DNA from: Methanobacteriota archaeon
GTDB taxonomy: Archaea > Thermoplasmatota > Poseidoniia > Poseidoniales > Poseidoniaceae
Length of the DNA: 54,599 bases
Assembly: GCA_002719395.1 (NCBI GenBank)
Contig: PBHM01000021.1
Span: 56,066 to 110,664, forward strand
Direction: 5' to 3'
The notes below the pieces were generated by a model that did not search any database, was not told the DNA's origin, and was given only the letters and a program-made list of their open reading frames with translations. A program made the position numbers and the translations under genes. Shown here one piece after another: positions 3,863 through 27,118 of the stretch (within the stretch, counting starts at the first letter, position 1; the number at the start of each line of letters is the position of its first letter).

Positions 3863-3875
3863 GTTCTAACTGAAA

Positions 3876-3921: not shown

Positions 3922-3930
3922 TTCTCTGGC

Positions 3931-3947: not shown

Positions 3948-3973
3948 ACCGCTTTTATGCACGTTTGAGTCCG

Positions 3974-9900: not shown

Positions 9901-12900
9901 TATCGAGGATTCTTACATCGAAAACTCAAGCGATTCTAACCACGGGGGAGAGGGTTTGATGTTGCTAGGAGAAGATTGTGGATATGGTTCTGGTTATGCA
10001 TGCCGTGCAATAATATCTCTTGACAATGGCCAAATTCCTCTTCCCACTACAGGTGCAAAAATACATTCCGTAAGTGTTCGATTTGCTATCGACAATGAAT
10101 ATTTCAACGGAGCTAATTCATTATCCATTTATGCATATCCGCTGTTAACCAGTTCATGGACTCAATTCGGTTCTTCTTGGTCGAACTCAAGCTCCGGAGT
10201 TCCTTGGTCGCAACCAGGTCTGCAACAGGGCGTTGAATATGCAAGTGCACCATCTGGACAAACAACCATCTATCCTGGTCAAGAAGACTTCTGGATAGAT
10301 CTTGGTTTTGATGGAATGACAATGGATGGTAAACATACATGGATTCTCATTGCTGTACCTAACATTGGATCTGCATGGCTTGAATTAGCATCTTCAGAAG
10401 ATGCCTTACTTTCATCAAGGCCAATGATATTGGTGAATTACACGGATGTTGACCAAGTCGAAGTTAGTCCTTCTAGTGGTACTTCAACAACGGCTGACAA
10501 TTCTGTGACTTTCACAAGAAATCTTCTCGATGCCTCAGGTGCCACAATCCCCGGCAGCGGTTCACTTCCTGTGGTTTGGAGTGTATCAGGAGGTACAGGT
10601 AAGGGTCAAATTGATGCTTCGACAGGTATCTATACTCCTGAATTGGTTGGTACTTACCAAATTACGGGCTGTTATGGAGTCATATGCTCAACCGTAGATA
10701 TCACTGTGACACATGGAGTTGCTGTAGAATTGCTTGCATCAGGTGATGCTACTGCAATAACTGCTGACCAAACCATGAACATAACCGCTCAGGTTGTCGA
10801 TCAATTTGGTAATGAGGTTCCTGGTGAACCAATTACCTATACGGTCTCCAATGATAATAATGGGAATCCTGCTGGTACGGTTTCAAATAAGGTGTTTTTC
10901 CCAAGTGTAGCCGGTTCTTGGACAATTACTGTTGGATGGAATGCTGAGCAGATTGTTCTTCCAATCGATGTTGTGGGAGGCGTGCCAGTTTCTCTTGACC
11001 TACAGGGTTGTAGCGAAGTACTTCCAGCGGGAACGTCATGTGGTATTAGTTGGCGTCTGGTCGACCAATTCAACAATCCACTTGACATTTCTTCTGCAGG
11101 TAATCTCACTTGGTCGGTTGATAACGGGACCTTCGATGCAACATCAGCCACTGGCCCTGATAATCAAGGATATTACACTGCTAGTTACCTTGGTTATGGC
11201 GTTGGCACATGGGAACTTGGAGTTACTTCTTTGAACGGATTCTCTGCTAATTTGAATATTGATGTGACACATGGCGCCATTGCAGACATTGAAATTTCAG
11301 CATCATCACTTAGCGTAACAGCAGATGATTTGGTTTACTTCAATACCACGAGGATTGACGTAATGGGTAATCGATTGCCGATAACCATCCCCGCAGAGAA
11401 TTGGACCTACGATGACGGTTCCTTGACAGCAGGTAATCCTGCAGTTTGGGATCCAGTAAGCCTATCAAGTCAACAAATACTTACGGCCAGTTATGAGGGC
11501 ATATCTTCTGATGTTACCGTTTTCGTCGACAAGGGTGCAATTGTAGGGATGGAATTACTTGTCAACAATGTTGATATGAAGAACACCATCATTGAAATTA
11601 CCTCAGATGATGAGACAGTCATCAAATTACGTGCTTTTGACAGTGATGGAAACACATGGTTTGAGCCAGTAGACTGGGAATTATCTCATCCCATCTATGA
11701 TAATCAAGCACTATTACTGGGAGCAATGGATAGTGATACTGTAACCTTCACTCCAGAAAAATCAAGTGATGTAGATTACACAATCACTGCGGTTTATGCC
11801 GTAGGTTCCACCATTGTTGAGGAATCTCTCTACATTTCAGTAAGTCCTGGAGATTTGAAGAATATTGATTTGCTTCTTCCTACATCCGATGTATTGAACA
11901 TAACCGCAGATGAAAATATTGCAATTTCACTTCGCCTCACTGATGATGAGGGAAATACGCTTTCACAAAGTGGAGTTTCGTACCTTCTCACGACCATTGG
12001 AAATGGTGATGATGAGCAGGACCCTATCCCGCCAAAAGATATCACTCAAGAAATCGTTGACAACGGTGGTGTTTGGGAAGCCAGCGAAACAGGAGAATTC
12101 AGAATTACAGCCTGGCAAATCAGTGAAAAAGGATTCAACCGAAGTCGAAATATCGAAGTGTCAGTGACGCATGGAGACGCAATAAACCTCTCACATGATG
12201 TTGCCACCGATTCACTCATGGCGGGTGATTCTGTCGAAATCTCTGTTACAGCATCAGACTTTGATGGAAATACTTGGGCATATGATGCGGTTTGGAAGAA
12301 AGATGGTCGCGTGACAGGTGAAATATCTCCTACCTTGGAAGCCGGTGCCTTCTCATTCCAAGCAACCGAAGCAGGAGAGCATGAATTTGAATACTTCACA
12401 GATGATGGTATCACGACAGGTAAATGGGTTGTTAATGTCATCCCAAGTAATATTCCGAAATTAATCGAAATAAATGTGAGCTCTGAAGTCGTTGACCAAC
12501 AAGGTATAGTCATGATTGAAGTCACCGTTTACGATGAATATAACAACCAAATTACGGTACCAGATTACACGGAAATAGAGGTTACTGGACGTATGGGAGT
12601 GGAGCAGTCCGGCGTTTCTTCGTGGGAAATTACGGCAGTTGAAAGTGGAGAACACTTGATTATTGTTAAGATTGGAAACCTTGAGGAATCAGTCTCTATC
12701 ATGGTCGGAGGAACGATTACTGGATTCTTTGCTGCTGGTGGGCCATTATACTATGCCGGTGCTGGGTTAGGTGCTTTAATACTCGTTGTATTGTTGGTAA
12801 TCATTGTGATTGTTTTGCGATCAGGAAGTGATGATGAATGGGATGATGAGTATGAAGACGAGGATGATTTCGGTGGTGGAGAGTTGAAGAAGCCCGATAT

Positions 12901-13120
12901 GGATAAATTACTTGGAAAAACCACCTCTATGTCAGAATACGGTGCTGGTCCATCTGAACCACCTGCTCAGGAACAACCTCCTGTTCAGCAACAGGAAGAA
13001 GATACGTCATGGATGGCCGACTATCGAGTAGATGAAGACGGAACTGAGTGGGGTCAAGATGAAGAGGGCTACTGGTTCTACAGAGAACCAGGTGGCGACT
13101 GGGAAGCATGGAATGAGTGA
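3974..13120 (+). CDS. Giant surface protein: DNRLRE/Fn3-like tandem modules, Ig-like repeats, C-terminal anchor
   Basis: This is a secreted, membrane-anchored protein of about 3048 aa. The frame is open from 3827, but ATG 3974 gives a classic signal peptide (basic start, then AILLVAMFLLSSS), so I chose it. Residues about 50-2160 hold seven copies of a module of about 322 aa. Each copy pairs a DNRLRE-type beta-sandwich (signatures such as YDGVNNWSTPG and LLEFDLSDIP) with an Fn3-like domain ending in WYWRVK or similar. Residues about 2160-2910 are invasin/Big-type Ig-like repeats with recurring VTHG and D-x-x-G-N motifs. One membrane helix follows (about 2926-2949), then an acidic cytoplasmic tail of about 100 aa. 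The tail has a Pro/Gln stretch and an aromatic end (EWGQDEEGYWFYREPGG). DNRLRE domains are common in secreted glycan-associated or adhesive proteins. An adhesion or envelope role is inferred. Confidence 0.92.
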   Translation: MSLPRPFSLRVSKAILLVAMFLLSSSVNTGWLLSDESALEEGNKIQYIFAQDSSTKDNGISEALQDRNNGNAPFADVGIQNGNESRLIIQFPFSRVNTDRIVDAQLVLFCAPAPNSNGNGVFYAAPLYPYFEEQWSNWGESENNTPWDEAGADGANDRDDWEAPTLISGTSYIFMNVTSVVQQAALNNDTSIAFVVSATNALYQCGTREGATNNLPFLNMNYTSTPAPVPAGSLTPTFVEDGDALMDTTFLLSADTSPTVTWSNLGGTNVEIDFSSSPDWKAEGDSPWNWNSIEHWSNFIMNGANGSMNYPGGSELDIGTTMHYRMRAISTTGQIGNWTSGYFELPAHDVTDNGDGTASFYVNAENLGLSDRTIDDVFLNSSNTGKSQNYDGQHLSVGTNGLDTQNTLIRLRVADIGLNGQQSLQSAEISFNMTNFDDTFIASIHPVFSGQEWDESSVTWTTSDGVNSWAEGGRSDALFSIDNVELSNNGPVSFNITSSIQYWIDNNETLPDTIDFYLSAVSRDETPQTENFANFNSSEQDLNAVNLSVTYFSSPGDTVELPQLTYPINGQVAWLDNEGNLSAALSPQLNWTTPDAMNLQGTLELTSDPDFRDVIYTTTINPTSEQEDLSGVVTLDAGTKYYWRVQYSSSLGQLGWYASDSFLVSLVESTYLGNDRHELRLRQGNATSDGMSPLCQDTYISSTAPTTNSNGYASMQALYATSGALSSILLNCDLASHALPDGYAVESASLRLTLSEPPSATPATLGLWELDVHNWTQSGATWNTYDGVNNWSTPGAYGADRLGMLSSHVMTSEVTGASLEFNATLAVQNAMREERGLDLILDVLNPGSGQTRYVYIAESVSQLTEDKWPELILVYTSGSDVAPDTPSTISPLNGSWAIEEGIEAKPDDSPTLNWSASQGVPLTGYTLEIDTSEHFNSTDLRSYTSWIDDGFDVENGTFTVQSGDALDRGKTWYWRVKGISSTFQIGAWSQWASFKLPDMDTGLLTATSSYVHVEHLKAMPELSIPEFEDTWIADSGPYFDTTHNNAGVLNVGTLSTSNVYSLIRIPQGALPSPANAHISGAELNLWVESGTSQYVAIAETLVDWNSSANGSSYDGVNNWSTFGGNNDNDRGDYLDIQSATVGSWLTLDVTYAVQRAINQGQIEISLFLSGFSSSNILSFTSTEGNSADRPWLNLTWESGSPVAIPAQPQILEPTPGGVSWDPTSHAWIPDDTPTLSAFANGSIDAWLVEIWNNDTNTGWTTYDSRVQSGDFTSTFDGTKTQMTFDAPSINWIEVQWRLTAIAGDMLSNRSDDSSFYIPNAIGGEINATDAWVIAQEGLAVPQINAFEMFSDTHMSVGSTSSNIADTSLALGGANDAMAIIRFNYSQLNRDTYDVIESTLNLYRLSGGSASVGDENIQVSVSLLSKSWNESANWATSDGSSPWADGCLSCETIPVDVGEISFNENWLSFDITSVAQNLNAEGITESSLLLQVESGSNGVWTFASSENDLSNRPFVNTTYRDGTEPWLPDMPSGLTPLEHSTMWDTSLSQPGGLSTFDINWTSTVSNASSWHLQISDDPRFISGEVWTYDLSDSNTYNGTWDLGSLTYSLPSNIGWGDSWYYFRSRAIQDYRLGSWSDASSFRVPAIQGVSLGDGNYSLTLSHGSIFSNAGEYPNVEDASIDSSNPTTNYGEDTNLDIGVGKQGSGVSEILLEFDLSDIPFPAATTPTNVQINLTRSSVSGTSPLTISAHACASVDEASITWNNKPACSMTELTRSTLGLSNPTGTFTWDITGLAQDNFANGNKTLSVLLKAVGTPGSTHTFWSSEIVNSNLRPTLLFEYVDNVDGIQPPGQVSLISPTDGNILYDASSWLIEPELSPQLSWNSVSDATGYHLFVTENNGGIVKYPNLVSTTYTLPSVSAGNNYEWWVQALNGSIPGPSSARWTFSIGNPQAHTDNGDQTWTYQFQTGNEVASIGHTNIEDSYIENSSDSNHGGEGLMLLGEDCGYGSGYACRAIISLDNGQIPLPTTGAKIHSVSVRFAIDNEYFNGANSLSIYAYPLLTSSWTQFGSSWSNSSSGVPWSQPGLQQGVEYASAPSGQTTIYPGQEDFWIDLGFDGMTMDGKHTWILIAVPNIGSAWLELASSEDALLSSRPMILVNYTDVDQVEVSPSSGTSTTADNSVTFTRNLLDASGATIPGSGSLPVVWSVSGGTGKGQIDASTGIYTPELVGTYQITGCYGVICSTVDITVTHGVAVELLASGDATAITADQTMNITAQVVDQFGNEVPGEPITYTVSNDNNGNPAGTVSNKVFFPSVAGSWTITVGWNAEQIVLPIDVVGGVPVSLDLQGCSEVLPAGTSCGISWRLVDQFNNPLDISSAGNLTWSVDNGTFDATSATGPDNQGYYTASYLGYGVGTWELGVTSLNGFSANLNIDVTHGAIADIEISASSLSVTADDLVYFNTTRIDVMGNRLPITIPAENWTYDDGSLTAGNPAVWDPVSLSSQQILTASYEGISSDVTVFVDKGAIVGMELLVNNVDMKNTIIEITSDDETVIKLRAFDSDGNTWFEPVDWELSHPIYDNQALLLGAMDSDTVTFTPEKSSDVDYTITAVYAVGSTIVEESLYISVSPGDLKNIDLLLPTSDVLNITADENIAISLRLTDDEGNTLSQSGVSYLLTTIGNGDDEQDPIPPKDITQEIVDNGGVWEASETGEFRITAWQISEKGFNRSRNIEVSVTHGDAINLSHDVATDSLMAGDSVEISVTASDFDGNTWAYDAVWKKDGRVTGEISPTLEAGAFSFQATEAGEHEFEYFTDDGITTGKWVVNVIPSNIPKLIEINVSSEVVDQQGIVMIEVTVYDEYNNQITVPDYTEIEVTGRMGVEQSGVSSWEITAVESGEHLIIVKIGNLEESVSIMVGGTITGFFAAGGPLYYAGAGLGALILVVLLVIIVIVLRSGSDDEWDDEYEDEDDFGGGELKKPDMDKLLGKTTSMSEYGAGPSEPPAQEQPPVQQQEEDTSWMADYRVDEDGTEWGQDEEGYWFYREPGGDWEAWNE
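4130..10445 (+). repeat. Seven tandem coding modules of about 966 bp
   Basis: The landmark Trp codon of the DNRLRE signature falls near 4412, 5378, 6344, 7328, 8297 and 10205. The sixth copy lies near 9250 and is more divergent. The interval is thus close to 966 bp, or 322 codons. Copies are strongly diverged in DNA and amino acids, so this is an old protein-level repeat and not a recent amplification. Confidence 0.7.
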
Positions 13121-15767: not shown

Positions 15768-17432
15768 TCACTCTTCTTCAGCGATCTTTTCGATTTCCTC
15801 TAAAAATTCGTTTTCATCGATAAATCCACTTTTATCGAGGTCAATCGTATGAAAAATCTCTTCTAAATCCTTGGAGGTGAGCATGAAGTCAAGTGCTCGT
15901 ACGGCTATTTTGAATTCTTGCAAGTTGAGTTTATTCTTTTCACCTACATCTGCAGCATGGAATGCGGCCCTTCTTCTCTTTTCCTCAATTTTGACAGGGC
16001 CAAACATTTTTTCGGAGAAACTTTGGAAAGGTGTCTTTCTTTTGTCATCATGCGATTTGCCATATCCGTAGTACAGGATTAAACCGAGAATGATAGCAGA
16101 ACCCCCACCAATTACAGCTTTGTCACCCATGATGACTAGTAGGTAAATGCCACCAATAATTCCCCACCATTGAATCCAAGGATAGAAGTGAGACCTATAC
16201 TCAGGTAAATACCAATCATGCTCTTGGCTTGAAGAACGTAATACCATTACACAAGCATTAATGAAAACGAAAATCATAATCTTAAATCCTGAAGCAAGCT
16301 TGGCTACATCTTTTACTGGTAGAAATAAAATGCATATTCCCATTGCGACAGATGTGATGACAATTGGCCAGAATGGTGTTTCATATTTTGGATGTACTTC
16401 GGCTAAGTTTTGAGGAAGTAAGTGGTCTTTGCCCATGGCAAAGATGAAACGAGATGCTGCGAGAATGCCGGCTAAAGCCATGGAAATAATGGTTAAAATA
16501 GCCATAATTGCGATGATCAAACCAACAGTTGGACCAGCGACAGCTTCGACAAATATGTAAATTGAATCTTCTCTTATTTTTCCATCACTGCCATACCACC
16601 ATTCACCAGGGATGGTAGCGCCTATCATGAAGGTAACAAATACGTAAAGTGCAGTAGAGATCAGTAAAGAAAGCATGATGCCAACAGGTAAGTTCCTTCC
16701 TGGGTTTTTTACTTCCCCTCCTATGGCTGCTACTTTGGTAACCCCGGCGTAAGCAACAAACACGAAAGCAGTGGCCTCACCAATTTTGAGAGGTTCATTC
16801 TTCAGAGTCGATAATGTATCACTGAATGGTCTTGATAAATCTGTGCTCGGGTCGAAAAGTTGAATGATGCATACAAGCATCAAAAGAGCTAAGGTAACGC
16901 CAAGTATTGGGTATTGAAAGGATTTGATTTTTTTCATTCCAAGGATATTTAGAATTGTAATCAAGACAAGCGCACTTAGTGAAATCACAGTGAGTTGAAT
17001 ATTGATGCTAAAGTACGTGGTAATCACATACATGTAGGCTGAAAAACCAATCAGTGCAACGGCAGATTTCAGCATCGCAGAAGCCCATAATCCCAATCCG
17101 CTAATCGTACCAAATAACCGACCAAATGTACGCTCAAGGTATACGTAAGAACCCCCACTTGAAGGCATGGCTGACGCCAACTCTGACTTTGACAATGCTG
17201 CTGGTAAAACCACTGATGCTGCCAATAAATACGCTAACCAGATTCCATTCCCCGCAATCTCACCTACAAAGGCAGGAAGGACAAATAATCCGGTTCCGAG
17301 CATAGATGATAAACAGATGACGATGACGCCAAATAGACCTAAACTTCTCTCTAGGGTCATGGAAATTTTTGTTCGAACTTCTCCAGTGGCTAATGCCATT
17401 TTCCTACGAGGGTCAATGTTTGCAGAACTCAT
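15768..17432 (-). CDS. APC-family amino-acid permease fused to C-terminal EF-hand domain
   Basis: Residues about 28-470 form a polytopic APC-superfamily transporter. The first helix carries the GTGLFVLPA signature, the PSSGGSYVYLERTFG motif lies after helix 2, and GEVKNPGRNLP sits in the loop after the sixth helix. Such proteins move amino acids or amines by proton or sodium symport or by exchange. The last 70 residues are soluble and hold two EF-hands. The second has a perfect calcium loop, DLDKSGFIDENE (bases 15807-15842); the first (DVGEKNKLNLQE) is degenerate. This suggests transport gated or tuned by calcium. The start codon overlaps the stop of the upstream ring-cleavage gene by 4 bp, so it closes that operon and may import the substrate. 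Substrate identity is not visible. Confidence 0.9.
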   Translation of the reverse strand: MSSANIDPRRKMALATGEVRTKISMTLERSLGLFGVIVICLSSMLGTGLFVLPAFVGEIAGNGIWLAYLLAASVVLPAALSKSELASAMPSSGGSYVYLERTFGRLFGTISGLGLWASAMLKSAVALIGFSAYMYVITTYFSINIQLTVISLSALVLITILNILGMKKIKSFQYPILGVTLALLMLVCIIQLFDPSTDLSRPFSDTLSTLKNEPLKIGEATAFVFVAYAGVTKVAAIGGEVKNPGRNLPVGIMLSLLISTALYVFVTFMIGATIPGEWWYGSDGKIREDSIYIFVEAVAGPTVGLIIAIMAILTIISMALAGILAASRFIFAMGKDHLLPQNLAEVHPKYETPFWPIVITSVAMGICILFLPVKDVAKLASGFKIMIFVFINACVMVLRSSSQEHDWYLPEYRSHFYPWIQWWGIIGGIYLLVIMGDKAVIGGGSAIILGLILYYGYGKSHDDKRKTPFQSFSEKMFGPVKIEEKRRRAAFHAADVGEKNKLNLQEFKIAVRALDFMLTSKDLEEIFHTIDLDKSGFIDENEFLEEIEKIAEEE

Positions 17433-18844
17433 TCATCATCACCAAAGCGAGCCACAACTTTCATCTCCACTGCAATTGGCGTAGGTAGGGCTTTGATGGC
17501 TATGGTCGTTCTCGTGGGACCATAGGCTCCAAGCGTTTCAGCCCAAACTTCATTGTATCCTTTAAAATCACGATCCATGTCGATGAGAAAAGTCGTAACA
17601 TCGACTACGTTTTCAAGTGATGCTCCTGCTTCATTGAGTATTTTTTCAATATTTGAAACGACGGCTCTTGTTTGTGCTTTGATATCATAATCAACTGCTT
17701 TGCCGTTTTCGTCTTTAATCGCTCCACCCGGTATTTGACTGGTCCCTGGTTGTCTTGGCCCAACACCGGAGAGATACAGGACATTTCCTTCACGTCGTGC
17801 ATGAGGATATGCTCCAACTGGTTTGGGTGCTTCTTGACTATTCACCGATGTGTTGGTATCCGTCGGCTCCCATAATTCAGGATGTTGGGAGTGAATTGGC
17901 TGTTCTTTTATCTCAACCAGGTTCGAATCTTTTCCTTCATCAAGTACGTCCCTATCTCCTGCAAATGTTTCTACAGAATCTTCATCATATTCTTTGTCAC
18001 CTTGGCCACTTGATGTTGGATCGAGGACAACAACTGCCGCTCCAGCGCCGTGAATAGGTTCGTAGCCTAGGACCTCGCCTGTTAGATCATTTCTGTGTTG
18101 GTTCATTGAAGAAAGCCACCACATGGGTTTGAATGCAACGACTTTTTGTACCCTGATTTGATGATGAATTGTTCTGGATAATTGGGCCACATCTTCGAGT
18201 CTTCCTGCTCCTAGAAATTCCAATATTTTGAGGTTCCATTCATCATCCTTTGCTGAATGAATTCGGTCTTCATGAGGTTGTATAGGTGCTGTAAACATTC
18301 GATTCGATAAACTCATGATTGAAACAGCAACGGCTTTTCTACCTAATTGGTTGATTGCATCCAAACAGGATTTGGCAAGAACCGTCGTTTCGGCACGATT
18401 GGCATAAACATTTGATGAACAAATCACCACTGGCAATCTGTTGTCTGGATTGAGTAATTTACAGGCAACAACTGAACCTACGTCAATTGGAAATCCATCA
18501 TAGGCGACTTTCCGACTTTCCAGTCCACGATTTTGATTTGCTTTATGCCATGCTTCAGCTAATTCGGTGTCTACCCTGAATTGGTATGGAATTGAACCTA
18601 AGTCATGGAAGTCCGCATCAACCAGTACCCATTCAGGATTTGGATGTGCTTGAATTTGGTGACCAATAATGCTCGGCCATAACGTCGAATAGATGACAAG
18701 AACATCGGCATCTGTTTGTTCAATGATTTCTCTAGCATTGTCGTAGGCTTCACGAATTTTACCCCAGCCCTCGTTTTTTTCTGGTGCGAGTAGAGGATGC
18801 GGGTGGGCAGGAACCACGAGAGATTTCACTGGTTGGGCGGTCAT
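17429..18844 (-). CDS. Aminophenol dioxygenase alpha-like subunit fused to RidA-type 2-aminomuconate deaminase
   Basis: This is a two-domain protein of 471 aa. ATG 18844 is chosen because it overlaps the upstream TGA as ATGA, although the frame extends to 18874. Residues about 1-265 are LigB-fold (class III extradiol dioxygenase). The iron-site positions seen in the neighbouring subunit are lost here: SPHW becomes STLW and SLSHRHF becomes SLSNRMF. This fits the non-catalytic alpha subunit (AmnA type). An acidic linker follows. Residues about 341-471 are a complete RidA/YjgF domain with the conserved Arg in GPTRTT and Glu in AVEMKVVAR, as in AmnD, which hydrolyses 2-aminomuconate to 4-oxalocrotonate and ammonia. 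In bacteria these are separate genes. Assignment of the exact substrate is inference; the RidA half could instead be a general enamine/imine deaminase. Confidence 0.85.
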   Translation of the reverse strand: MTAQPVKSLVVPAHPHPLLAPEKNEGWGKIREAYDNAREIIEQTDADVLVIYSTLWPSIIGHQIQAHPNPEWVLVDADFHDLGSIPYQFRVDTELAEAWHKANQNRGLESRKVAYDGFPIDVGSVVACKLLNPDNRLPVVICSSNVYANRAETTVLAKSCLDAINQLGRKAVAVSIMSLSNRMFTAPIQPHEDRIHSAKDDEWNLKILEFLGAGRLEDVAQLSRTIHHQIRVQKVVAFKPMWWLSSMNQHRNDLTGEVLGYEPIHGAGAAVVVLDPTSSGQGDKEYDEDSVETFAGDRDVLDEGKDSNLVEIKEQPIHSQHPELWEPTDTNTSVNSQEAPKPVGAYPHARREGNVLYLSGVGPRQPGTSQIPGGAIKDENGKAVDYDIKAQTRAVVSNIEKILNEAGASLENVVDVTTFLIDMDRDFKGYNEVWAETLGAYGPTRTTIAIKALPTPIAVEMKVVARFGDDE

Positions 18845-19740
18845 GAGTTCTCCCTCCAATTTCTTGATGGCCATTCCATGATTGCATTCCCAGTTCCGAT
18901 GATTGTGCCATATCCGTGTAAAATAGCGGGTTCATCTGGCATGTCTAATGCAGATAACATCCATGTTAATGCACCTCCATCGCTTTCTGCGATGGCTTGT
19001 TCGACAAATTCAGGCATCTCATTGACAATTTGCTGGCTTTTCCCAGACCGCATGAGTTCAATCATTCTCATATCCCATAGATGCATGGCATGACTTGAGA
19101 TGTGCTCAACACTCATATCCTCTGGAACCTCGCTTTCAGTTGTAAAGTGGCGATGCGAGAGAGAATTACTCGCTACAATTACACACTTTTTGCCGCTTTC
19201 TAGAATTGCCTTTCTGGTGGCTTTTCCAAGTTGAATCATCATTTCTTGCATTACTTCAACCGAGTAATAAGCGTGTCCTCGGTTACTTGAGATACTCACG
19301 ATTGGCTTATCCCATTCAGGTCTGATCATGTGGCAAGATGTGATGGTTCCATAATCAATTCTGAAATCTTGATTTTCCATCATTTTTACAGCCAAGCCGT
19401 CATCTTTGGCCTGGTCATGAATGGCTTTGGACAATTCAACATCAACAGTTACATCATATTTGAATCGAAATAAATTTGGAAAAATTGGATCCACAGAAAG
19501 AGATTCAAATCTTTCTAGTCCAAGAAAATGAGTGCCGACATAGGTTTGCCAATGTGGCGATAAAATGACGATACAATCGTAATCAACATCTTCCAAGGAT
19601 TTTCTAAGCCGTTCATATCCCCATCGTAATTGCTCCCATCCACCTTCTGAATTAGGCTCATTTTGAGGCGGATTTTCCGCATAAACCAAATGTGGTGGAT
19701 GAGGTGCTAGCAATCCAGCCACGATTTGACCTTCCGCCAT
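18841..19740 (-). CDS. amnB: 2-aminophenol 1,6-dioxygenase beta (catalytic) subunit
   Basis: This 299-aa class III extradiol dioxygenase opens aminophenol-type rings to 2-aminomuconic 6-semialdehyde. The N-terminus (LLAPHPPHLVYAENPPQNEP) closely matches bacterial AmnB as I remember it. The iron ligands known for Comamonas aminophenol dioxygenase (His13, His62, Glu251) and catalytic His195 appear here at a constant offset of one: His14, His63, Glu252 and His196. The family length is about 305 aa. The gene overlaps the alpha/RidA gene by 4 bp and is followed by the EF-hand permease, forming a three-gene operon. It is divergent from a small membrane-protein gene 54 bp away. The true substrate may be 2-aminophenol or a ring-substituted relative. 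Confidence 0.9.
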   Translation of the reverse strand: MAEGQIVAGLLAPHPPHLVYAENPPQNEPNSEGGWEQLRWGYERLRKSLEDVDYDCIVILSPHWQTYVGTHFLGLERFESLSVDPIFPNLFRFKYDVTVDVELSKAIHDQAKDDGLAVKMMENQDFRIDYGTITSCHMIRPEWDKPIVSISSNRGHAYYSVEVMQEMMIQLGKATRKAILESGKKCVIVASNSLSHRHFTTESEVPEDMSVEHISSHAMHLWDMRMIELMRSGKSQQIVNEMPEFVEQAIAESDGGALTWMLSALDMPDEPAILHGYGTIIGTGNAIMEWPSRNWRENS

Positions 19741-19794
19741 AGAACGACCACAAATAACCGGACTTTCTATGCATCGGAAGGAAGTGGACGAAAT

Positions 19795-20193
19795 ATGGGG
19801 GATACGTCAGTACAACACAATGCCGTGCCGGGCATCATTGGCTTCATTTTTGGAATGTTTTTTCAATACCTGGATCTTCGATTCACTACATATTATCCCA
19901 ACCCCATGCAATATGCGTTATTGCTGGCGATTGTCGCCTCACCACTTATTGCAAAACTCACCGGCATACCTGCATCCAAAGATCACATGTTTGGAGTAGG
20001 AGTAGTCGCCCTACCTCTAGCGATACTTTGGTTTCTTGGATTTTCTTATTTTGTATTCGCGATACCAGGAATATTGTGGATTTGGATGTCGGTTTCATGG
20101 CCTCAATACCACTTGCCTCCGTTTAGAATTGGCGTTTGGCATGGCATGGGTATTGCTTTTACAGCCTTCGTCGGTGTTTTGATGATCGCTTAA
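19795..20193 (+). CDS. Small polytopic membrane protein (132 aa)
   Basis: ATG 19795 is chosen, since the frame upstream of it would overlap the divergent amnB start. The protein is mostly hydrophobic, with four or five helices (GIIGFIFGMFFQYLDL, YALLLAIVASPLIAKL, GVVALPLAILWFLGFSYFVF, GIAFTAFVGVLMIA). It has no recognised motif or charge pattern of a known transporter. It is the only plus-strand gene inside the long minus-strand metabolic block and ends 1 bp before the panB stop. Its function is unknown. It could be a lineage-specific accessory membrane protein and need not belong to the catabolic genes. Confidence 0.75.
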   Translation: MGDTSVQHNAVPGIIGFIFGMFFQYLDLRFTTYYPNPMQYALLLAIVASPLIAKLTGIPASKDHMFGVGVVALPLAILWFLGFSYFVFAIPGILWIWMSVSWPQYHLPPFRIGVWHGMGIAFTAFVGVLMIA

Positions 20194-20194
20194 G

Positions 20195-21010
20195 TTAATA
20201 CGATTCACTTTCGTTTGGAAAATCACCATCTCGAACATCTTTACAAAATGACTTGACTGCATCGGTTATCGATTCTTCAAGGTTAAGATATCTGCGTAAA
20301 AACCTCGGTGAGAAATCAGTGGTAATTCCAAGGAGGTCATGAAGAACCAATACCTGTCCATCGCAATGGGGTCCAGCACCAATGCCAATGATTGGGATGG
20401 ACACAGATTCTGTAACTGCCCGTGCGAGTTCACTCGGTATTTTCTCTAATACAATCCCAAAACAGCCTGCCTGTTCAAGCAACTTCGCGTCTTCAATGAG
20501 TTTTTTTGCTTCTTCTTCTTCTTTGGCTCGAACGCTGTAAGTTCCAAATTTGTAAATCGACTGAGGAGTCAGTCCTAAATGCCCCATCACCGGGATGCCT
20601 GCGGTCAAAATTCTCTCGATACTTTCAACGATCTCGGAACCTCCCTCAAGTTTCACAGCATGGCCATTGGTTTCTTTCATAATCTTGATTGCACTTTCTA
20701 AGGCGAGTCGGGAATTTCCTTGATAGGTTCCAAATGGCATATCTACAACAATCAGTGCTTTTTCGACGGCTCTTTCAACACACTGTGCATGATAGATCAT
20801 ATGCTCTAGCGTCATTGGAACAGTCGTATCTTTTCCAGCCATCACATTTGATGCAGAATCACCCACGAGGATGATGTCGACACCTCCTTGGTCTACCAGT
20901 TTAGCCAGAGAATAATCGTAGGCGGTCAGCATAGTAATTTTCTCCCCTGCAGCCTTCATTTCTTGAAGCGTATGGGTTGTAATTTTCTTCGCATTAGCAT
21001 GGATTGACAT
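20195..21010 (-). CDS. panB: 3-methyl-2-oxobutanoate hydroxymethyltransferase
   Basis: PanB transfers a one-carbon unit from a methylene-tetrahydropterin to 2-oxoisovalerate, giving ketopantoate for coenzyme A synthesis. At 271 aa it has the normal length. The TIM-barrel signatures are present: [27 protein letters not shown] with a metal-binding Asp, VVDMPFG with the second Asp, AVKLEGG with the Glu, and [18 protein letters not shown]. It lies 49 bp downstream of the aldehyde dehydrogenase on the same strand and may be carried by the same transcript. No other pantothenate gene is in the window, so its place here may be incidental. Confidence 0.96.
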
Positions 21011-21059
21011 CTTGGCCCCTTACAACGGAACAACAGTCATGATTTGAATGAGTCGTTTT

Positions 21060-22436
21060 TTAATCCATAACACAAATGTTGATTGGTTGAGAAAAAAATT
21101 CAAGTGACCATCGACCACCTTCTCTGCCTAAACCCGAGTCCTTCACTCCTCCGAACGGGACTCTTAAATCACGATGTAACCAAGTATTCACCCAAATCAT
21201 ACCGGATTCTATTTTTTCTGCAACAGCCATTCCTCGCTGTTTTGACCAAACTGAACCTGCCAATCCATAATCGGTATTATTGGCAATAGCGATGGCTTCT
21301 TCATCAGACTGGAAGGTGTGAATTGTTACTACAGGTCCAAATATTTCTTCGGTAGAACAACGTGAATCAGGCTCTAAACCAGTGATGACTGTTGGTGGAA
21401 TGAAAAATCCATTCTCTCCAGATTGTTCACCACCTGTGAGAATTTCTCCGCCCTCTTCTTTTGCTAATTCGATGTATGATAGCACCTTTTGCATATGGTT
21501 TTCTGAAATAACAGGGCCTATTGAAAAGTTGTTGACTTGAGGAATAAATTCCTTCATGAATTCGTCATAAATTGACGCATGAACGAGAATACGACTGCCA
21601 CAAAGACATATCTGCCCTGAATTGAGAAAACCTGCACGTACAACTCCCGGGATTGCAATGGAAAGATCGGCATCATCAAGAATAATCGACGAATTTTTCC
21701 CTCCTAATTCCAGACTTAATTTTTTGAACATTGGCGCAGCAATACTGGCTACAATTCTTCCAGTTTGGGTTCCTCCTGTGAAAGAAATTGCATCGATATC
21801 TGGATGTTCAATAATCGATTGACCAACTTCATGTCCAAATCCATGAACCATGTTCACGACTCCTTTTGGGAATTGGATATCTTCCAAAATTTGACATAGG
21901 GCATGTGCAGAAAGAGGTGTTAACTCGCTTGGTTTTGCAACGACGGTATTTCCCATGAGTAAGGCAGGTGCCAGTTTCCAAGTCAGTAGATATAGCGGTA
22001 AATTCCATGGAGTGATGAGGGCCACTACGCCCATTGGTTTTCGCAGGATAAAATTTGTAGCGTCATCCATGCGATATTCATTCTCGGAGATATGAGTATG
22101 ATATTCACTGAAAAATCTAAAATTTTTGATACATCTGTCGATATCAACATTCAAAGCGACTTCAATCGGTTTTCCCGTGTCAAGTGATTCTACTTTTGCG
22201 AGTTCACTCTTTCTTTGTTCAATCGCATCAGCAATTTTTCCTAACCATTGAGCCCTTTCCTCTATGGTTCGATTTGCCCAATCCTTTTTGGCCTCCTTGG
22301 CAGCAGAAATTGAAGCATTTGCGTCTAAGGTACGAGGGATTTTTGCAATTTTTTCCCCCGTTGCTGGTCCAATATCATCGATAGTTTCGATTTCTGTTTC
22401 AAAAGAACCAGCAATGTAATTTTGGACGATAATCAT
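21060..22436 (-). CDS. Aldehyde dehydrogenase, 2-aminomuconic/2-hydroxymuconic semialdehyde type
   Basis: This 458-aa NAD-dependent aldehyde dehydrogenase has the complete active site: Asn145 in TPWNLP, Lys168 in AKPSELTP, Glu243 in LELGGKN and Cys277 in SGQICLCGSR. Sequence features such as NFRFFSEYH and PFGGVKDSGLGREGG resemble the ALDH8A1/AmnC/XylG group, which oxidises ring-cleavage semialdehydes to muconates. Given the aminophenol dioxygenase genes 1.3 kb away, a role as 2-aminomuconic semialdehyde dehydrogenase (AmnC step) is the best guess. Other aldehydes remain possible. The start overlaps the preceding hydrolase stop as ATGA, so translation is coupled. Confidence 0.88.
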   Translation of the reverse strand: MIIVQNYIAGSFETEIETIDDIGPATGEKIAKIPRTLDANASISAAKEAKKDWANRTIEERAQWLGKIADAIEQRKSELAKVESLDTGKPIEVALNVDIDRCIKNFRFFSEYHTHISENEYRMDDATNFILRKPMGVVALITPWNLPLYLLTWKLAPALLMGNTVVAKPSELTPLSAHALCQILEDIQFPKGVVNMVHGFGHEVGQSIIEHPDIDAISFTGGTQTGRIVASIAAPMFKKLSLELGGKNSSIILDDADLSIAIPGVVRAGFLNSGQICLCGSRILVHASIYDEFMKEFIPQVNNFSIGPVISENHMQKVLSYIELAKEEGGEILTGGEQSGENGFFIPPTVITGLEPDSRCSTEEIFGPVVTIHTFQSDEEAIAIANNTDYGLAGSVWSKQRGMAVAEKIESGMIWVNTWLHRDLRVPFGGVKDSGLGREGGRWSLEFFSQPINICVMD

Positions 22437-23548
22437 ACGTCGACCTCATATTGCCATCGGTCTCTATCTGGGTCCCATTCATCCCATGTTGGGATGTTTT
22501 TGAGTATCTCAATTCGATTTTCAGGGACGATGCCTGGGACAATGAATGCCTTTTGTCGGTGCAAGGGGTAGGGGTTTCTCAATTCAAATCCAAGAGTTCC
22601 TAATATCGAGCGAGCAACGTACCATGTGGCTTGGGCGTTCCAACCATGAGCAATTTTAATGACAATACCTAAGCCGTCAGGATAGTCTTCATGAAGGATT
22701 GCAAGCCCAAGCAATCCATCAGCTCCTTCCTTTGCAATTACTTTACCTTCCCCAACCTTGAGAATTGTCGAATCCAATCGATTGAATCCTCCAACCAAGT
22801 CTGGATGGCGACACATCGCCTCCCAGATCCAATCTTCGTCTTTATCACGAACCAAGCCCGCGTAAATTTTTGCCAATTCAGAAACCGTATTACTTACCGT
22901 CGGCAAACCACACCCATCTTTCGCAATACGAAGTGGTTTCCAAGATTTACCTAAAAATCGGCGAAGCTGCTCCATGTATGCTTGAAACACCTCATGTTCA
23001 GGCAAAGTGTAACCCGCTCTATTCCATCCTTTGGCTCTACATCCTTTCAAAATTGCCGCATGTTCCCCGCTGCATGTATGAAACCATCTTCTTGGCCTGC
23101 GAACCTGGCGACCGAATTGAACGAGCGGAACATCCAACGGCGTCATCATCAATGGCCATTCTGATTTTGCGAGAAGTGATTGAGCAGTAGCCACGTGTTC
23201 TGTATCTCCGTTATGGCTTGCCACAGAGATGGCTTTCTGTTCCCAACTGCAATCCTCTAATTCTTTGACGAATGATTTGAGCATGAACGGTTTCATCATT
23301 GACCTTCCATAGCAAAGGACATTCCCTCCAAAGGAATGGATTACTTCATTCCCATGGCACCATGCAACAGCGCCATGAACGGTGTTTTCACTTACTCCAT
23401 TTCTTCTGTAGTCTACTAAAGGTTCCCATTCCACATCACGTCCGGTTGGTATACCTTGTATGTCTTCTCCAAAGGGGGAGTCAGGATATACCTGAGAGCC
23501 CGGTTGACCTGGAGAAACCGCTGAATGAGGATCATGTTGAATGGTCAT
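22433..23548 (-). CDS. Asparaginase-II-family amidohydrolase (PF06089-like)
   Basis: The 371-aa form starting at ATG 23548 is preferred because it overlaps the LLM oxidoreductase stop as ATGA; the frame extends to 23599. The fold is that of Rhizobium etli type asparaginase. The Ser-x-x-Lys nucleophile pair is visible as S83-M-M-K86, and the two metal-site cysteines are at C159 (CSGEH) and C213 (DGCG), with the 54-residue spacing of the family. The usual Lys of CSGKH is Glu162 here, so the metal site is altered. It could hydrolyse asparagine or another amide made by the neighbouring enzymes. The position inside the operon favours a pathway-specific amide, which is inference. Confidence 0.82.
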   Translation of the reverse strand: MTIQHDPHSAVSPGQPGSQVYPDSPFGEDIQGIPTGRDVEWEPLVDYRRNGVSENTVHGAVAWCHGNEVIHSFGGNVLCYGRSMMKPFMLKSFVKELEDCSWEQKAISVASHNGDTEHVATAQSLLAKSEWPLMMTPLDVPLVQFGRQVRRPRRWFHTCSGEHAAILKGCRAKGWNRAGYTLPEHEVFQAYMEQLRRFLGKSWKPLRIAKDGCGLPTVSNTVSELAKIYAGLVRDKDEDWIWEAMCRHPDLVGGFNRLDSTILKVGEGKVIAKEGADGLLGLAILHEDYPDGLGIVIKIAHGWNAQATWYVARSILGTLGFELRNPYPLHRQKAFIVPGIVPENRIEILKNIPTWDEWDPDRDRWQYEVDV

Positions 23549-24777
23549 AAAATTCTCTCCAAACCTTTCTCGATTAACGGGACCACTTGGGTCATCCACG
23601 CTTCCATATTTCGCATCACTCTCGCTGAGTCATGGTTGAAAAAGTCAAACCATGTCATGATTCTATCCTCTGGATGAAACCGTTCCAGTGCTTGTTTTGC
23701 AACCTCTTTTGGATTGCCAATGAGTGCATTATTGGCCGCTTTTTTGACCTTATCTGGGTCAAGTGTTCCATCCAGTGCTCGCCAATATGCCCCAAGGGCA
23801 AGTTCGGCTTCTTTTTGAGCAGCAAGGTTTTGTTGCTCTTCATCTAAGTCACCCTCGGCATTAAGGAACACAAACGTTGTTCTTGGCATATCTCTCCTTT
23901 CCCATTTACCGCCATCTTGGTGAAAACAATCTCGCATCCTTTGGTGCGTCGCTTCGATGACATCAGGAGAAGTGATGGATAAGTTGAAAACTTTCACGGG
24001 CAAGATTTGGTTGAAGAATACTTGAGCATAAGGATCGTGCGTGCCAGCAACTAATTCCAGTTGTTCCTTTGGAAATTGTGTAGGAACGATTGATATCTCT
24101 TCAAATTCATATCTCCTCTCAAAAGAGATGGCCTCTACTTCACCACCAGCAGTTTCAAGCAAATTTGTCCAATCTTCTTTATTTCTGAAATGTTCTTTTG
24201 TAAGAACCGTGTCTTTTACGTCATCAGAGTGTAAGGTGTCACCTCTCAATAAACGAAGGAATACTTCACCGGCTTCCATAAAAATTTGTCCACGTAGTGC
24301 AGGCCATGCCGCTTTTTCAATTTCATTTCGAGGTGTGATGCCATATGGTCGAGCCATAAATTCGAATCGTCCGGCAGAAAAACCAACGTGAAGTTTACGC
24401 TTGTCACCGCGAAGTTTCAGAAATTGCAGGGTATTTGCGATTCTCTCTGCAACAGGGATTGGACCTCCACCTGCAAGTATACTTATCACGGCTGAACCAA
24501 CATCAATCTTACTTGTGCGCTGAAAAGTTTCCAAGGCTAGTTGTGGAAAATCAGTGCACAGTCCAACTTCTCCCTTCCAGTGAGGTACAACTGGTTGGTC
24601 ATTCTGTTGTTGTGTTTGAGTTGAAAGATGGGCTTGAGCAATCCATGCGACACCAAAACCGAGGCGATCGGCGCATTCAACTTGCTCAAAATAATTTCTA
24701 AACATCTCTTCTTCATTAGGTGTGTATCCTTCATGGTCAGGAGTCTGACTGATTGAAAAGAAAATGTCGTATTCCAT
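23545..24777 (-). CDS. LLM-class flavin-dependent monooxygenase
   Basis: This 410-aa protein has the luciferase-like TIM-barrel family pattern. A short first strand (YDIFFSISQTPDH) is followed by FEQVECADRLGFGVAWIAQAH, then the region IDVGSAVISILAGGGPIPVAERIANTLQFL and the later KLHVGFSAGRFEFMARPYGI. Such enzymes use reduced FMN and oxygen to hydroxylate or cleave small substrates. At 410 aa it is longer than the usual 330-360, the extra length being in the C-terminal half. It sits between a TPR-like gene (3 bp gap) and the asparaginase-like gene (ATGA overlap). A hydroxylation feeding the aminophenol route is possible but not shown. No flavin reductase is visible nearby. Confidence 0.85.
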   Translation of the reverse strand: MEYDIFFSISQTPDHEGYTPNEEEMFRNYFEQVECADRLGFGVAWIAQAHLSTQTQQQNDQPVVPHWKGEVGLCTDFPQLALETFQRTSKIDVGSAVISILAGGGPIPVAERIANTLQFLKLRGDKRKLHVGFSAGRFEFMARPYGITPRNEIEKAAWPALRGQIFMEAGEVFLRLLRGDTLHSDDVKDTVLTKEHFRNKEDWTNLLETAGGEVEAISFERRYEFEEISIVPTQFPKEQLELVAGTHDPYAQVFFNQILPVKVFNLSITSPDVIEATHQRMRDCFHQDGGKWERRDMPRTTFVFLNAEGDLDEEQQNLAAQKEAELALGAYWRALDGTLDPDKVKKAANNALIGNPKEVAKQALERFHPEDRIMTWFDFFNHDSARVMRNMEAWMTQVVPLIEKGLERIL

Positions 24778-24780
24778 TAC

Positions 24781-25584
24781 TCAGCCCACCACTTCTGTCA
24801 ATTTGGAAATTCGTTCTTTGAGAGGCGCTGGCACCGGAATATTTGATTCCATCATTTGTGTCATTACCGCGGAGAGTTGGACCATCGCTTCGTCCGGCTG
24901 ATTACTGATTTCCGCTAAATCAGCAAGGCCCCAACGAGATACTAAAACTCCGTCGAGATCACCAATTTCCTCAGCGATTTCTAATGACTCTTGCATCATT
25001 TCCATCGCTATTTCCAATTCTCCAATTGTAGCTTTGATGTGTGCAATATCTTGAATCGCTTCCATTCTTTCTGATTCTGATTGGGCCAGATTCAATCTTC
25101 TCTGGGAGAAAAGTTCTGCTGTATCCCAGTCTTCTTGTTGTTTTGCGATGTGACTTAACAAACTTAATCCAAATAAAATTCCATTTTCATCTTTTGATTG
25201 CTCTCTTAATCGCATGGAACGATTGGCCATTGTATTTGCATCGTCAAGTTCTTCCCGTCCTAGATATAGTAACGCAGCATGGTGAAACACCGCCGCTGCT
25301 AATTTTGAGTAATTTGCCTCTTGTTCAATGGCAAATGTCACGAAAGAGTCTATTTCAGACTCATCTCTCTTCATTTTCTCAAACAGAACCCAGCCCTTTT
25401 CTTCATCATCAGCAGCAACATCACTAGCGTGTGAAATAATTTTTTCGACCAAATCTTCTCTTCCAAGTTGCACTGCGACATCAATCATTCTCAAAGCCAG
25501 TGCCGTATCGATGACATCAGAACCTTGTTGATGTTTAATTATTTGGAGAATTTCTTCCGCAAATTCTTTCGAAATTCCACTCAA
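24781..25584 (-). CDS. TPR-like helical repeat protein
   Basis: This 267-aa soluble protein consists of paired amphipathic helices. TPR-like units are visible at LAAAVFHHAALLYLGREELDDANTMANRSM, GLSLLSHIAKQQEDWDTAELFSQRRL (shortened here to the recognisable core AALLYLGREELDDA), MEAIQDIAHIKATIGELEIA and VSRWGLADLAEISNQPDEA. There is no signal peptide or catalytic motif. It lies in the middle of the minus-strand block, 9 bp after the SDR gene and 3 bp before the LLM gene, so it is almost certainly co-transcribed. A scaffold or regulatory partner of the operon enzymes is the natural guess. I cannot assign a specific role. Confidence 0.82.
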   Translation of the reverse strand: MSGISKEFAEEILQIIKHQQGSDVIDTALALRMIDVAVQLGREDLVEKIISHASDVAADDEEKGWVLFEKMKRDESEIDSFVTFAIEQEANYSKLAAAVFHHAALLYLGREELDDANTMANRSMRLREQSKDENGILFGLSLLSHIAKQQEDWDTAELFSQRRLNLAQSESERMEAIQDIAHIKATIGELEIAMEMMQESLEIAEEIGDLDGVLVSRWGLADLAEISNQPDEAMVQLSAVMTQMMESNIPVPAPLKERISKLTEVVG

Positions 25585-25593: not shown

Positions 25594-26406
25594 TCAAATA
25601 GAACGTAATCGTCCTCCATCAACGGCTAAACTCACGCCGCGGATGCCTCCGCTGCTCGGTAAACACAAGAATGCGATTGCTATGCCAGTTTCATCCGGGT
25701 GAATCAATCTTTGAATTGGAACTTGACTCATCCATTGGTGATTGATTTCATCATGAGATTTGCCAGTTTTTTGATGGATGGAATCCGCCAATGAGTCTAA
25801 ACGTTCAGTATCAGTAAACCCTGGAAGAATATTGTTGATGGTAATACAGGGTGGTAATTCTCTACTCAACGTTTTGGACCATGAAGCCATCGCACCTCTC
25901 AAAGTGTTTGATAATCCGATATTTGGGATTGGTTCTTTGACTGAGGTTGAGATGATATTAACGATGCGTCCGAAACCGGAAACAGTCATGCCAGGGAGGC
26001 ATCGTTGTACCAGCAAATGTGATGCATGCAAGTGTCTTTTGAACGGTGCTTCAAAATCTTGAATTTTGTTATCTATCAACGGCCCACCAGGTGGACCAGC
26101 GCTATTATTGATCAGGATGTGAAATGGCTCTTGTTTCAATTTCTCAGAGATTACTTCATCAAGCAGTTCAAGATTTTCTAAATCCATGACCATCATGTCA
26201 TGTCCTTCACCGGGTAATTCCTCAACCAGAGATTTCAATTCCTCTTCATTTCGGCTGCAAACCACAACTTTGGCTCCACAACGAGCGAGAGCCATTGCAG
26301 TGCTTCGCCCAATACCCTTTGAAGCGCCACATACAAGGGCCTTGTATCCTACCAAGATTGTTTCAGAATAAGGAAATTTGTCCACTTTATCACTCTCCGT
26401 CCGCAT
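25594..26406 (-). CDS. Short-chain dehydrogenase/reductase, atypical active site
   Basis: The Rossmann nucleotide site is clear: KALVCGASKGIGRSTAMAL with the Gly motif, VVVCSRNEEEL as strand 2 and LINNSAGPPGG as the NNxAG motif. The usual Tyr-x-x-x-Lys is not present. The corresponding stretch reads GLSNTLRGAMASWSKTL, a Ser/Arg variant seen in some FabG-like SDRs. The catalytic Ser region (NIISTSVKEP) is kept. ATG 26406 overlaps the formyltransferase gene by 17 bp. A GTG at 26385, just after that stop and preceded by GGAG, is an alternative start. The frame itself reaches 26430. The substrate is unknown; its operon position suggests a step in the same pathway. Confidence 0.83.
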   Translation of the reverse strand: MRTESDKVDKFPYSETILVGYKALVCGASKGIGRSTAMALARCGAKVVVCSRNEEELKSLVEELPGEGHDMMVMDLENLELLDEVISEKLKQEPFHILINNSAGPPGGPLIDNKIQDFEAPFKRHLHASHLLVQRCLPGMTVSGFGRIVNIISTSVKEPIPNIGLSNTLRGAMASWSKTLSRELPPCITINNILPGFTDTERLDSLADSIHQKTGKSHDEINHQWMSQVPIQRLIHPDETGIAIAFLCLPSSGGIRGVSLAVDGGRLRSI

Positions 26407-27118
26407 AATGGGCATATGTTTGATCTGCAAGTTTTTGATACACTACCTGTAGAATTTCCTCAGGAGCATTACGAAACGTAGGGTGCTGGCTTTCACCTTG
26501 GGCTCTACGAATTTCACTCCATCTTCCCTCATCATAAGCAATGAGGGCTTCTTTCATCAAAACTCCGGCCAGTACCAAGGTTTCATAACACAAATTTTCG
26601 TATGTCATGCCTCTTTTAACTGCGATTTCTCTACGCATGAGTAGGTCCCCGGTATCGATTCCATTGTCACAAAAATGTGTAGATGAACCAATGGGGATGT
26701 CGTGATAAACCGACCATGCTGGGGAGGCTGAACCACGGCAATCAGGCAGCAGGCCTGGATGGGAGTTGATGACCCCATCTTTAGGGTAATCCAATATTTC
26801 TCCTCGGATGATTCGAGTTCCACCAAAAACAATCAGGTCAAGTTCAAAACCTTTGATCAGAGGCATTACAAATTCAGAATTGTGAATTGAAACCTCTTCA
26901 TGTATGATGTCCAAATGTTCAATCTGTTCTTTCACCGTAGGTGCGATATCATGACCCTCAATTCGTTTCAGAAATTTTTCTCTTTCCTCATCAGCAATAT
27001 CCGATACCTCGCTAATGATGATGTCAGGAACGAACCCTTCGGAGAGAATTTGGCGCAACATCTCCCTTCCATAGGGGTGTTCTTTGAGCAAAAGATAGGC
27101 AAATGTTGGCTTCGCCAT
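26390..27118 (-). CDS. Formyltransferase-fold protein (PurN/Fmt hydrolase-transferase family)
   Basis: This 242-aa protein consists of a single formyl_transferase domain with the catalytic trio Asn118, His120 and Asp155, in INSHPGLLPDCRG and DNGIDTGD. The family moves or hydrolyses formyl groups on 10-formyl-tetrahydrofolate: PurN, methionyl-tRNA formyltransferase, formyl-THF deformylase and sugar N-formyltransferases. The C-terminal OB domain of Fmt is absent. Archaea do not formylate initiator Met-tRNA, so a small-molecule role is more likely. It is the first gene after aspS (38 bp gap) in the long minus-strand block. Start ATG 27118 is clear. The substrate cannot be read from the sequence. 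Confidence 0.85.
   Translation of the reverse strand: MAKPTFAYLLLKEHPYGREMLRQILSEGFVPDIIISEVSDIADEEREKFLKRIEGHDIAPTVKEQIEHLDIIHEEVSIHNSEFVMPLIKGFELDLIVFGGTRIIRGEILDYPKDGVINSHPGLLPDCRGSASPAWSVYHDIPIGSSTHFCDNGIDTGDLLMRREIAVKRGMTYENLCYETLVLAGVLMKEALIAYDEGRWSEIRRAQGESQHPTFRNAPEEILQVVYQKLADQTYAHYADGE

Follow-up and report, generated by a model that had tools for sequence, protein, structure and literature searches.

What would a set of genes for the meta-cleavage of an aminophenol do in a planktonic marine archaeon? The question is raised by a 54,599-nucleotide stretch from the genome of a member of the Poseidoniaceae (Candidatus Poseidoniales, Marine Group II; Methanobacteriota archaeon, assembly GCA_002719395.1, contig PBHM01000021.1; G000:C21:56066-110664 in our numbering), referred to here as the window. 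The genome measures 1.74 Mb and is estimated to be 77% complete. The initial annotation had read the interval 17429-22436 as an aminophenol pathway equivalent to bacterial AmnB, AmnA, AmnC and AmnD, and had left the origin of the aminophenol open. Our analysis supports those four functions as the lower half of a pathway, whereas the wider evidence points to tryptophan as its source. The unit also proved larger, spanning at least 27118 down to 15768; the upstream genes for a luciferase-like monooxygenase (LLM), an asparaginase-like hydrolase (AsnII), a formyltransferase-like protein and a protein with the short-chain dehydrogenase/reductase (SDR) fold lay outside the earlier finding. We propose, as the rather probable answer, that Poseidoniales degrade tryptophan by a pathway that bypasses kynureninase and runs via 2-aminophenol. 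The genes to which the window would owe its part in this pathway are as follows.

18841..19740, minus strand: LigB beta, AmnB-like catalytic subunit of the 2-aminophenol 1,6-dioxygenase type, 299 aa (judged by PDB matches, residues and tree)
17429..18874, minus strand: dead LigB alpha (AmnA-like) fused to a RidA 2-aminomuconate deaminase domain (AmnD-like), 481 aa
21060..22436, minus strand: aldehyde dehydrogenase (ALDH) of the 2-aminomuconate-6-semialdehyde dehydrogenase type, AmnC-like (judged by PDB matches and motifs)
22433..23599, minus strand: AsnII, class 3 asparaginase-like hydrolase (PF06089, 166.5 bits)
23545..24777, minus strand: LLM, luciferase-like flavin monooxygenase (judged by predicted fold and Foldseek)
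26390..27118, minus strand: formyltransferase-like protein (PF00551, 46 bits)

The best PDB matches of the beta subunit are 8ihg_A (385 bits), 3vsg_B (367 bits) and 7txy (305 bits), all of them beta subunits of 2-aminophenol or 2-amino-5-chlorophenol 1,6-dioxygenase (APD). The best chain of the HpaD type scores 36 bits, so closer similarity to another LigB family was not found. Compared with plasmid-borne bacterial proteins, beta is 53–58% identical to the amn/cnb beta subunits and about 21–27% identical to HpaD-type sequences. The four catalytic residues named in the initial annotation, His14, His63, His196 and Glu252, are indeed invariant in all 27 archaeal and all 6 bacterial beta sequences aligned. 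We take His14, His63 and Glu252 to be the counterparts of the metal ligands His13, His62 and Glu251 of the reference 2-aminophenol 1,6-dioxygenase, and His196 that of its His195. In a maximum likelihood tree built with six bacterial sequences and having long outgroup branches, the archaeal beta subunits form one clade (98) that joins bacterial APD beta with an SH-aLRT value of 99. HpaD-type sequences lie outside APD beta on long branches, and archaeal alpha joins bacterial alpha (97).

Three partner activities had been proposed for beta, namely a dead alpha subunit, a RidA deaminase and a dehydrogenase. Genes of all three types are indeed present, although alpha and RidA turn out to be one gene. 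Its LigB half (about residues 16–285) best matches the APD alpha subunit 3vsg_A (154.8 bits), and alignment shows that it has lost the equivalents of His14, His63, His196 and Glu252. The beta/alpha pair is thus well supported as a putative dioxygenase of the 2-aminophenol 1,6 type. The RidA domain (about residues 347–476) best matches the 2-aminomuconate deaminase 6izh (94.6 bits). It is 44% identical to RidA genes of two bacterial amn clusters, but only 27–31% identical to the other RidA paralogue in those clusters. In Marine Group III (MGIII) and most of Marine Group IIb (MGIIb), alpha and RidA are separate genes. As for the dehydrogenase, the seven distinct sequences that score highest in PDB are without exception 2-aminomuconate-6-semialdehyde dehydrogenases (399–423 bits; 4npi/4i1w 423), and it is 42–43% identical to the dehydrogenases of amn clusters. 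It retains the catalytic CLC motif and the RDLRxPFGG motif, and scores 493 against TIGR03216, below the cut-off of 693. Since the best matches, the active-site residues and the position of beta in the tree agree, there is little doubt about an AmnBACD-like lower half; family and active-site residues can be read from the sequence for beta, the dead alpha, the dehydrogenase and RidA alike.

The same four enzyme types are encoded by the bacterial amnBACD and cnb clusters, the latter on plasmid pCNB of Comamonas CNB-1. Compared with these, alpha and RidA are fused in Poseidoniaceae, and in the window the PanB gene separates beta from the dehydrogenase. The archaeal set has no second RidA and no linked genes for fumarylacetoacetate hydrolase (FAH), acylating acetaldehyde dehydrogenase (AcALDH) or DmpG. 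Members of the FAA-hydrolase family occur once in most genomes, with no cluster link seen. Instead, the archaeal genes are linked to LLM, AsnII, the formyltransferase-like protein and the SDR-fold protein and, in relatives, to tryptophan 2,3-dioxygenase (TDO). Neither LLM nor AsnII was present in the bacterial amn clusters examined.

How widespread is this gene set? Among 390 Thermoplasmatota genomes, strong beta matches were found in 71 of 73 genomes of the Poseidoniaceae-type family (f1) and 49 of 55 of its sister family (f2), that is, in 120 of 128 Poseidoniales, as well as in four of the seven genomes of a further family (f3) and in two distant relatives, G082 and G112. The remaining matches are weak (E 3e-6 to 6e-4). 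Poseidoniales genomes with no beta match are estimated to be 80–87% complete, and assembly gaps may explain these absences. Within the close relatives of the window species, beta is present in 57 of 59 genomes, including all 24 near-complete ones; the genes are real and conserved. The nearest named relative is a Euryarchaeota metagenome-assembled genome with a 98% identical beta, and all other named loci but one are labelled Poseidoniales, Poseidoniaceae, Poseidonia or Euryarchaeota. The gene set is a core trait of the order Poseidoniales and not an isolated transfer. The one exception among the labels, L094, is filed under Rhodobiaceae bacterium and carries a Poseidoniaceae-type run of beta, alpha-RidA and permease; it is probably a mis-binned archaeal contig.

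The neighbourhoods of some 100 loci tie this set to tryptophan. LLM, AsnII and ALDH occur together in all lineages. In the sister family, they belong to an operon of the order formyltransferase-SDR-LLM-AsnII-ALDH, which in some cases lies apart from beta-alpha-RidA and in others immediately precedes it (L153-L156). In f3, which belongs to the same class as Poseidoniales and is likely MGIII, a single strand carries TDO-SDR-LLM-AsnII-ALDH-alpha/beta hydrolase-beta-alpha-RidA-formyltransferase, and L150 and L151 are arranged likewise. The distant G112 has the run TDO-LLM-AsnII-ALDH-beta-alphaRidA-KynB-SDR, in which the gene upstream of LLM matches the TDO family PF03301. A kynurenine formamidase of the KynB type (PF04199) lies inside the cluster in both G112 and G082, with 196 bits against TIGR03035 for G112. 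Poseidoniales almost always carry TDO. In the window genome, TDO is encoded on another contig (G000:C15:213502-214500; PF03301, 197 bits, cut-off 34.9); it scores below the equivalog cut-off of TIGR03036, is full-length relative to solved TDOs and aligns to 4hka over 338 residues that include the heme-ligand His and the distal His region. Because TDO and kynurenine formamidase share the cluster in relatives and the enzymes of the 3-hydroxyanthranilate route are absent, we consider it very likely that the gene set is part of tryptophan catabolism.

That absence rests on profile searches. Kynureninase was above cut-off in one of 25 genomes, and neither in the window genome nor in the closed genome G011; 3-hydroxyanthranilate 3,4-dioxygenase (3HAO) was above cut-off in one of 20. 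A PF04909 protein of the 2-amino-3-carboxymuconate semialdehyde decarboxylase (ACMSD) type was found in one of 18 Marine Group II (MGII) and MGIII genomes, and KynB-type PF04199 in none of these 18. The kynurenine 3-monooxygenase (KMO) family PF01494 matches every genome and every control and does not discriminate. The sole Poseidoniales positive for kynureninase, 3HAO and ACMSD is in each case the same MGIIb genome, G041, and the searches are therefore able to detect these enzymes. Its 3HAO and ACMSD genes are adjacent (L182 6518-8166, on G041:C44) and have archaeal-looking neighbours, a true kynureninase lies on another contig (L132, G041:C29), and TDO, LLM, AsnII and beta are also present. 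The classical route in G041 is possibly a later gain, or contamination. The kynurenine pathway is thus represented by its start (TDO) and its 2-aminomuconate end, and the usual enzymes in between are absent.

Measured against the kynurenine pathway of bacteria and animals (the branch through 3-hydroxyanthranilate and 2-aminomuconate), the archaeal set shares the TDO start and, in the two distant relatives, KynB. The two converge again at 2-aminomuconate semialdehyde, 2-aminomuconate and 4-oxalocrotonate. Where kynureninase, 3HAO and ACMSD are missing in nearly all genomes tested, however, the archaeal set has LLM and AsnII, the two enzymes always found in the gap between TDO and the aminomuconate end. 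By these defining features, it is not a classical kynurenine pathway.

We therefore turn to these two enzymes. LLM gave no phmmer match in PDB at E 0.001, and profile searches returned weak alkanal monooxygenase matches only. Its AlphaFold model (pLDDT 85) matches the bacterial luciferase superfamily in Foldseek, with E down to 1e-13; the identity to the matches listed is 12–19% and points to no specific subfamily. A type II Baeyer-Villiger monooxygenase (BVMO), the diketocamphane monooxygenase 4uwm, appears at rank 16; LLM thus shares its superfamily, although the fold is not specific to BVMOs. Luciferases and diketocamphane monooxygenases have been classed as type II BVMOs (PMC8706424). No LLM homologue was found in phages. 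A plasmid of Streptomyces clavuligerus encodes a homologue that is 45% identical (L142 12001-13245); it has no pathway genes nearby and was discarded as support for the pathway. It suggests a wider LLM family.

AsnII belongs to PF06089, the family that includes ReAIV and ReAV, two class 3 L-asparaginases from Rhizobium etli, and matches the ReAV structure 7os3 with about 62 bits over 276 residues. Both Ser-Lys tandems of ReAV (Ser48-Lys51 and Ser80-Lys263) are kept, as is Arg47: the corresponding AsnII residues Arg99, Ser100, Lys103, Ser128 and Lys290 are invariant in 40 orthologues, so that here too both family and active-site residues are evident, as they are for TDO. In ReAV, all five are required for activity (PMC8602277, PMC12292245). 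Cys176 and Cys230, equivalent to the zinc-site Cys135 and Cys189 of ReAV, are kept in at least 90% of sequences. At the loci seen, and in contrast to ReAV, AsnII is encoded next to LLM within an aromatic cluster. We also considered AsnII as a kynurenine formamidase and rejected this role: AsnII coexists with KynB in the clusters of G112 and G082, and it is therefore unlikely to be the formamidase and should serve another function.

Deformylation may instead fall to the formyltransferase-like protein, which retains Asn118 and His120 of the formyltransferase NxHP motif and is encoded in MGIIb and MGIII clusters. The two clusters that carry KynB (G112 and G082) have no such gene. Because KynB is found only where the formyltransferase-like gene is absent from the cluster, a displacement of kynurenine formamidase by the formyltransferase-like protein is the most economical interpretation.

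Taken in order, the proposed pathway would begin with TDO, which would open tryptophan to N-formylkynurenine; the formyltransferase-like protein, replacing KynB, would then strip the formyl group to give kynurenine. In kynurenine, an aryl ketone, the ortho-amino group favours migration of the aryl ring. Using O2 and reduced flavin, LLM could place an oxygen atom between this ring and the ketone, yielding the 2-aminophenyl beta-ester of L-aspartate; a spontaneous rearrangement of this ester could produce the beta-anilide, N4-(2-hydroxyphenyl)asparagine. Asparaginases recognise a beta-aspartyl acyl group, and AsnII, as an asparaginase-type Ser-Lys hydrolase, would split the product into L-aspartate and 2-aminophenol. 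The latter is exactly the substrate of an AmnB/A/C/D-type set, so no decarboxylase would be needed. LigB beta/alpha would cleave 2-aminophenol to 2-aminomuconate semialdehyde, the dehydrogenase would convert this to 2-aminomuconate, and the RidA domain would deaminate 2-aminomuconate to 4-oxalocrotonate. The linkage to TDO and kynurenine formamidase is established by genome comparison; we infer what LLM, AsnII and the formyltransferase-like protein catalyse, in which order they act and what becomes of 4-oxalocrotonate. The odds lean slightly towards the chemistry stated for LLM and AsnII, a Baeyer-Villiger oxidation of kynurenine followed by release of aspartate and 2-aminophenol.

Several observations weigh against this proposal. 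All enzyme activities in it are predicted from genes alone. The window cluster itself is without TDO, which is also unlinked in the MGII genomes examined. The luciferase fold includes desulfonating, hydroxylating and F420-dependent enzymes and does not single out Baeyer-Villiger chemistry, and no flavin reductase partner for LLM was identified. In AsnII, the ReAV zinc ligand Lys138 is replaced by Glu179; its AlphaFold model, derived from a shallow alignment, has a mean pLDDT of 34 and was not used. We know of no deformylase activity on N-formylkynurenine for the formyltransferase-like protein. The SDR-fold protein, although its gene is tied to the LLM operon in all lineages seen, is without the catalytic motif and fits no step: in place of YxxxK, 23 aligned orthologues read SNTxR, and the protein is probably not a dehydrogenase. 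A DmpG-type aldolase was not found, in a search whose controls were silent too. Finally, the co-occurrence counts in the 390 genomes, in themselves favourable to the pathway (LLM and TDO: both in 129, one only in 14, neither in 247; beta and LLM: both in 124, one only in 11, neither in 255), are inflated by common descent; independent and better evidence comes from the linkage conserved in f3 and f31.

The tryptophan link could also be accommodated by a variant of the 3-hydroxyanthranilate route, in which LLM would hydroxylate the ring, AsnII or another enzyme would remove alanine, the LigB pair would act as a 3-hydroxyanthranilate dioxygenase and an unrecognised decarboxylase would follow. 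Such a variant agrees with the TDO and KynB linkage, 3-hydroxyanthranilate is itself an ortho-aminophenol cut at the equivalent bond, and some bacteria are known to degrade tryptophan by way of 2-amino-3-carboxymuconate semialdehyde (PMC12113859). It is nonetheless unlikely: kynureninase, 3HAO and an ACMSD-type protein are missing from nearly every genome tested, the best matches of the dehydrogenase and RidA act on decarboxylated intermediates, and the AsnII family consists of acyl hydrolases with no known C-C cleavage. A change in the order of steps would be explained by the same gene set. LLM might act on N-formylkynurenine, AsnII on the N-formyl product and the deformylase on N-formyl-2-aminophenol, or LLM might catalyse some other reaction; the formyltransferase-like gene of MGIII does lie at the 3' end, beside RidA. 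Early deformylation is favoured, however, by the KynB-type gene in G112 and G082, whose family is known for N-formylkynurenine, and we rate this ordering as quite improbable.

Readings that dispense with tryptophan fare worse. The related amn/cnb clusters of bacteria reside on plasmids, and one of them comes from an aniline-contaminated site, which would suit the scavenging of external 2-aminophenols as on xenobiotic plasmids; yet the genes are near-universal in Poseidoniales, the archaeal beta subunits form a single clade, TDO and KynB are linked in relatives and an amino acid permease adjoins the cluster, making this explanation very improbable. Still harder to credit is a catechol-degrading pathway whose LigB pair would come from a different extradiol family, for instance that of homoprotocatechuate dioxygenase. 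The HpaD profile TIGR02298 does match beta, but with 86 bits, far under its cut-off of 316, while PDB scores favour APD about tenfold in bits and the tree unites archaeal with bacterial APD beta to the exclusion of HpaD; moreover, a catechol route has no use for a RidA deaminase.

The proposed tryptophan pathway via 2-aminophenol leaves several neighbours of the cluster to be described.

25594..26430, minus strand: SDR-fold protein (PF13561, 118 bits)
24781..25584, minus strand: tetratricopeptide repeat (TPR) protein (PF13424, 42 bits)
20195..21010, minus strand: PanB, ketopantoate hydroxymethyltransferase (NF001452, 387 bits, cut-off 272)
19726-20193, plus strand: small divergent membrane-protein open reading frame between PanB and beta
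15768..17432, minus strand: APC amino acid permease with a C-terminal EF-hand (PF00324, 151 bits; EF-hand, 37 bits)

The run reads aspartyl-tRNA synthetase, formyltransferase-like, SDR, TPR, LLM, AsnII, ALDH, PanB, beta, alpha-RidA and APC permease. All genes of interest are on the minus strand, with intergenic gaps of -55 to 49 bases except for that between PanB and beta, which measures 454 bases and holds the small divergent reading frame. The position of this frame is kept in most Poseidoniaceae, and its product evolves fast (mostly 29–44% identity). PanB, though inside the run, is probably unrelated and serves coenzyme A synthesis; it was not found in the MGIII, f22 and f31 clusters. The TPR gene occurs in Poseidoniaceae, in the same transcription unit as LLM, and was not seen in the MGIII cluster. 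The permease gene overlaps alpha-RidA by 4 bases and lies 3' of it at most loci of Poseidoniaceae and at several of MGIIb. Its product is probably an amino acid importer; the C-terminal EF-hand pair, an unusual combination, suggests calcium-sensitive uptake. A non-discriminating aspartyl-tRNA synthetase (27157-28563, minus strand) heads the run in the window species, and several MGIIb genomes also have it next to the gene for the formyltransferase-like protein. This may be coincidence, though the proposed pathway yields aspartate. Farther away, what is likely a giant cell-surface protein of 3097 residues is encoded at 3827-13120 (plus strand); it contains carbohydrate-binding modules of the CBM96 type as well as a weak disaggregatase-related repeat.

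We found no earlier report of this gene combination in the open-access literature, nor, in the open-licence literature, a paper that connects kynurenine to 2-aminophenol through the action of a BVMO or luciferase-like enzyme. The open-access literature likewise yielded no description of the activities proposed for LLM and AsnII; these would be new if true. We see an even chance that a kynureninase-free route, with a Baeyer-Villiger step by LLM and an asparaginase-type split, belongs to the core traits of abundant planktonic archaea. Among the planktonic archaea of surface waters, Marine Group II has been described as the most abundant, and its members as degraders of protein (PMC6461757). That study does not set out how they consume aromatic amino acids; its main text makes no mention of tryptophan, dioxygenase or aromatic. 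By a route that requires oxygen and can be put to the test, the gene set would carry tryptophan into central carbon metabolism and yield aspartate. If true, it would be a further way to dismantle kynurenine and would explain TDO in genomes that have no kynureninase. Natural functions would also be found for a luciferase-like family and for an asparaginase-like one whose members would probably receive the plain name asparaginase in automated annotation. Should the activity be confirmed, a textbook pathway would gain a new branch in an abundant uncultured group.

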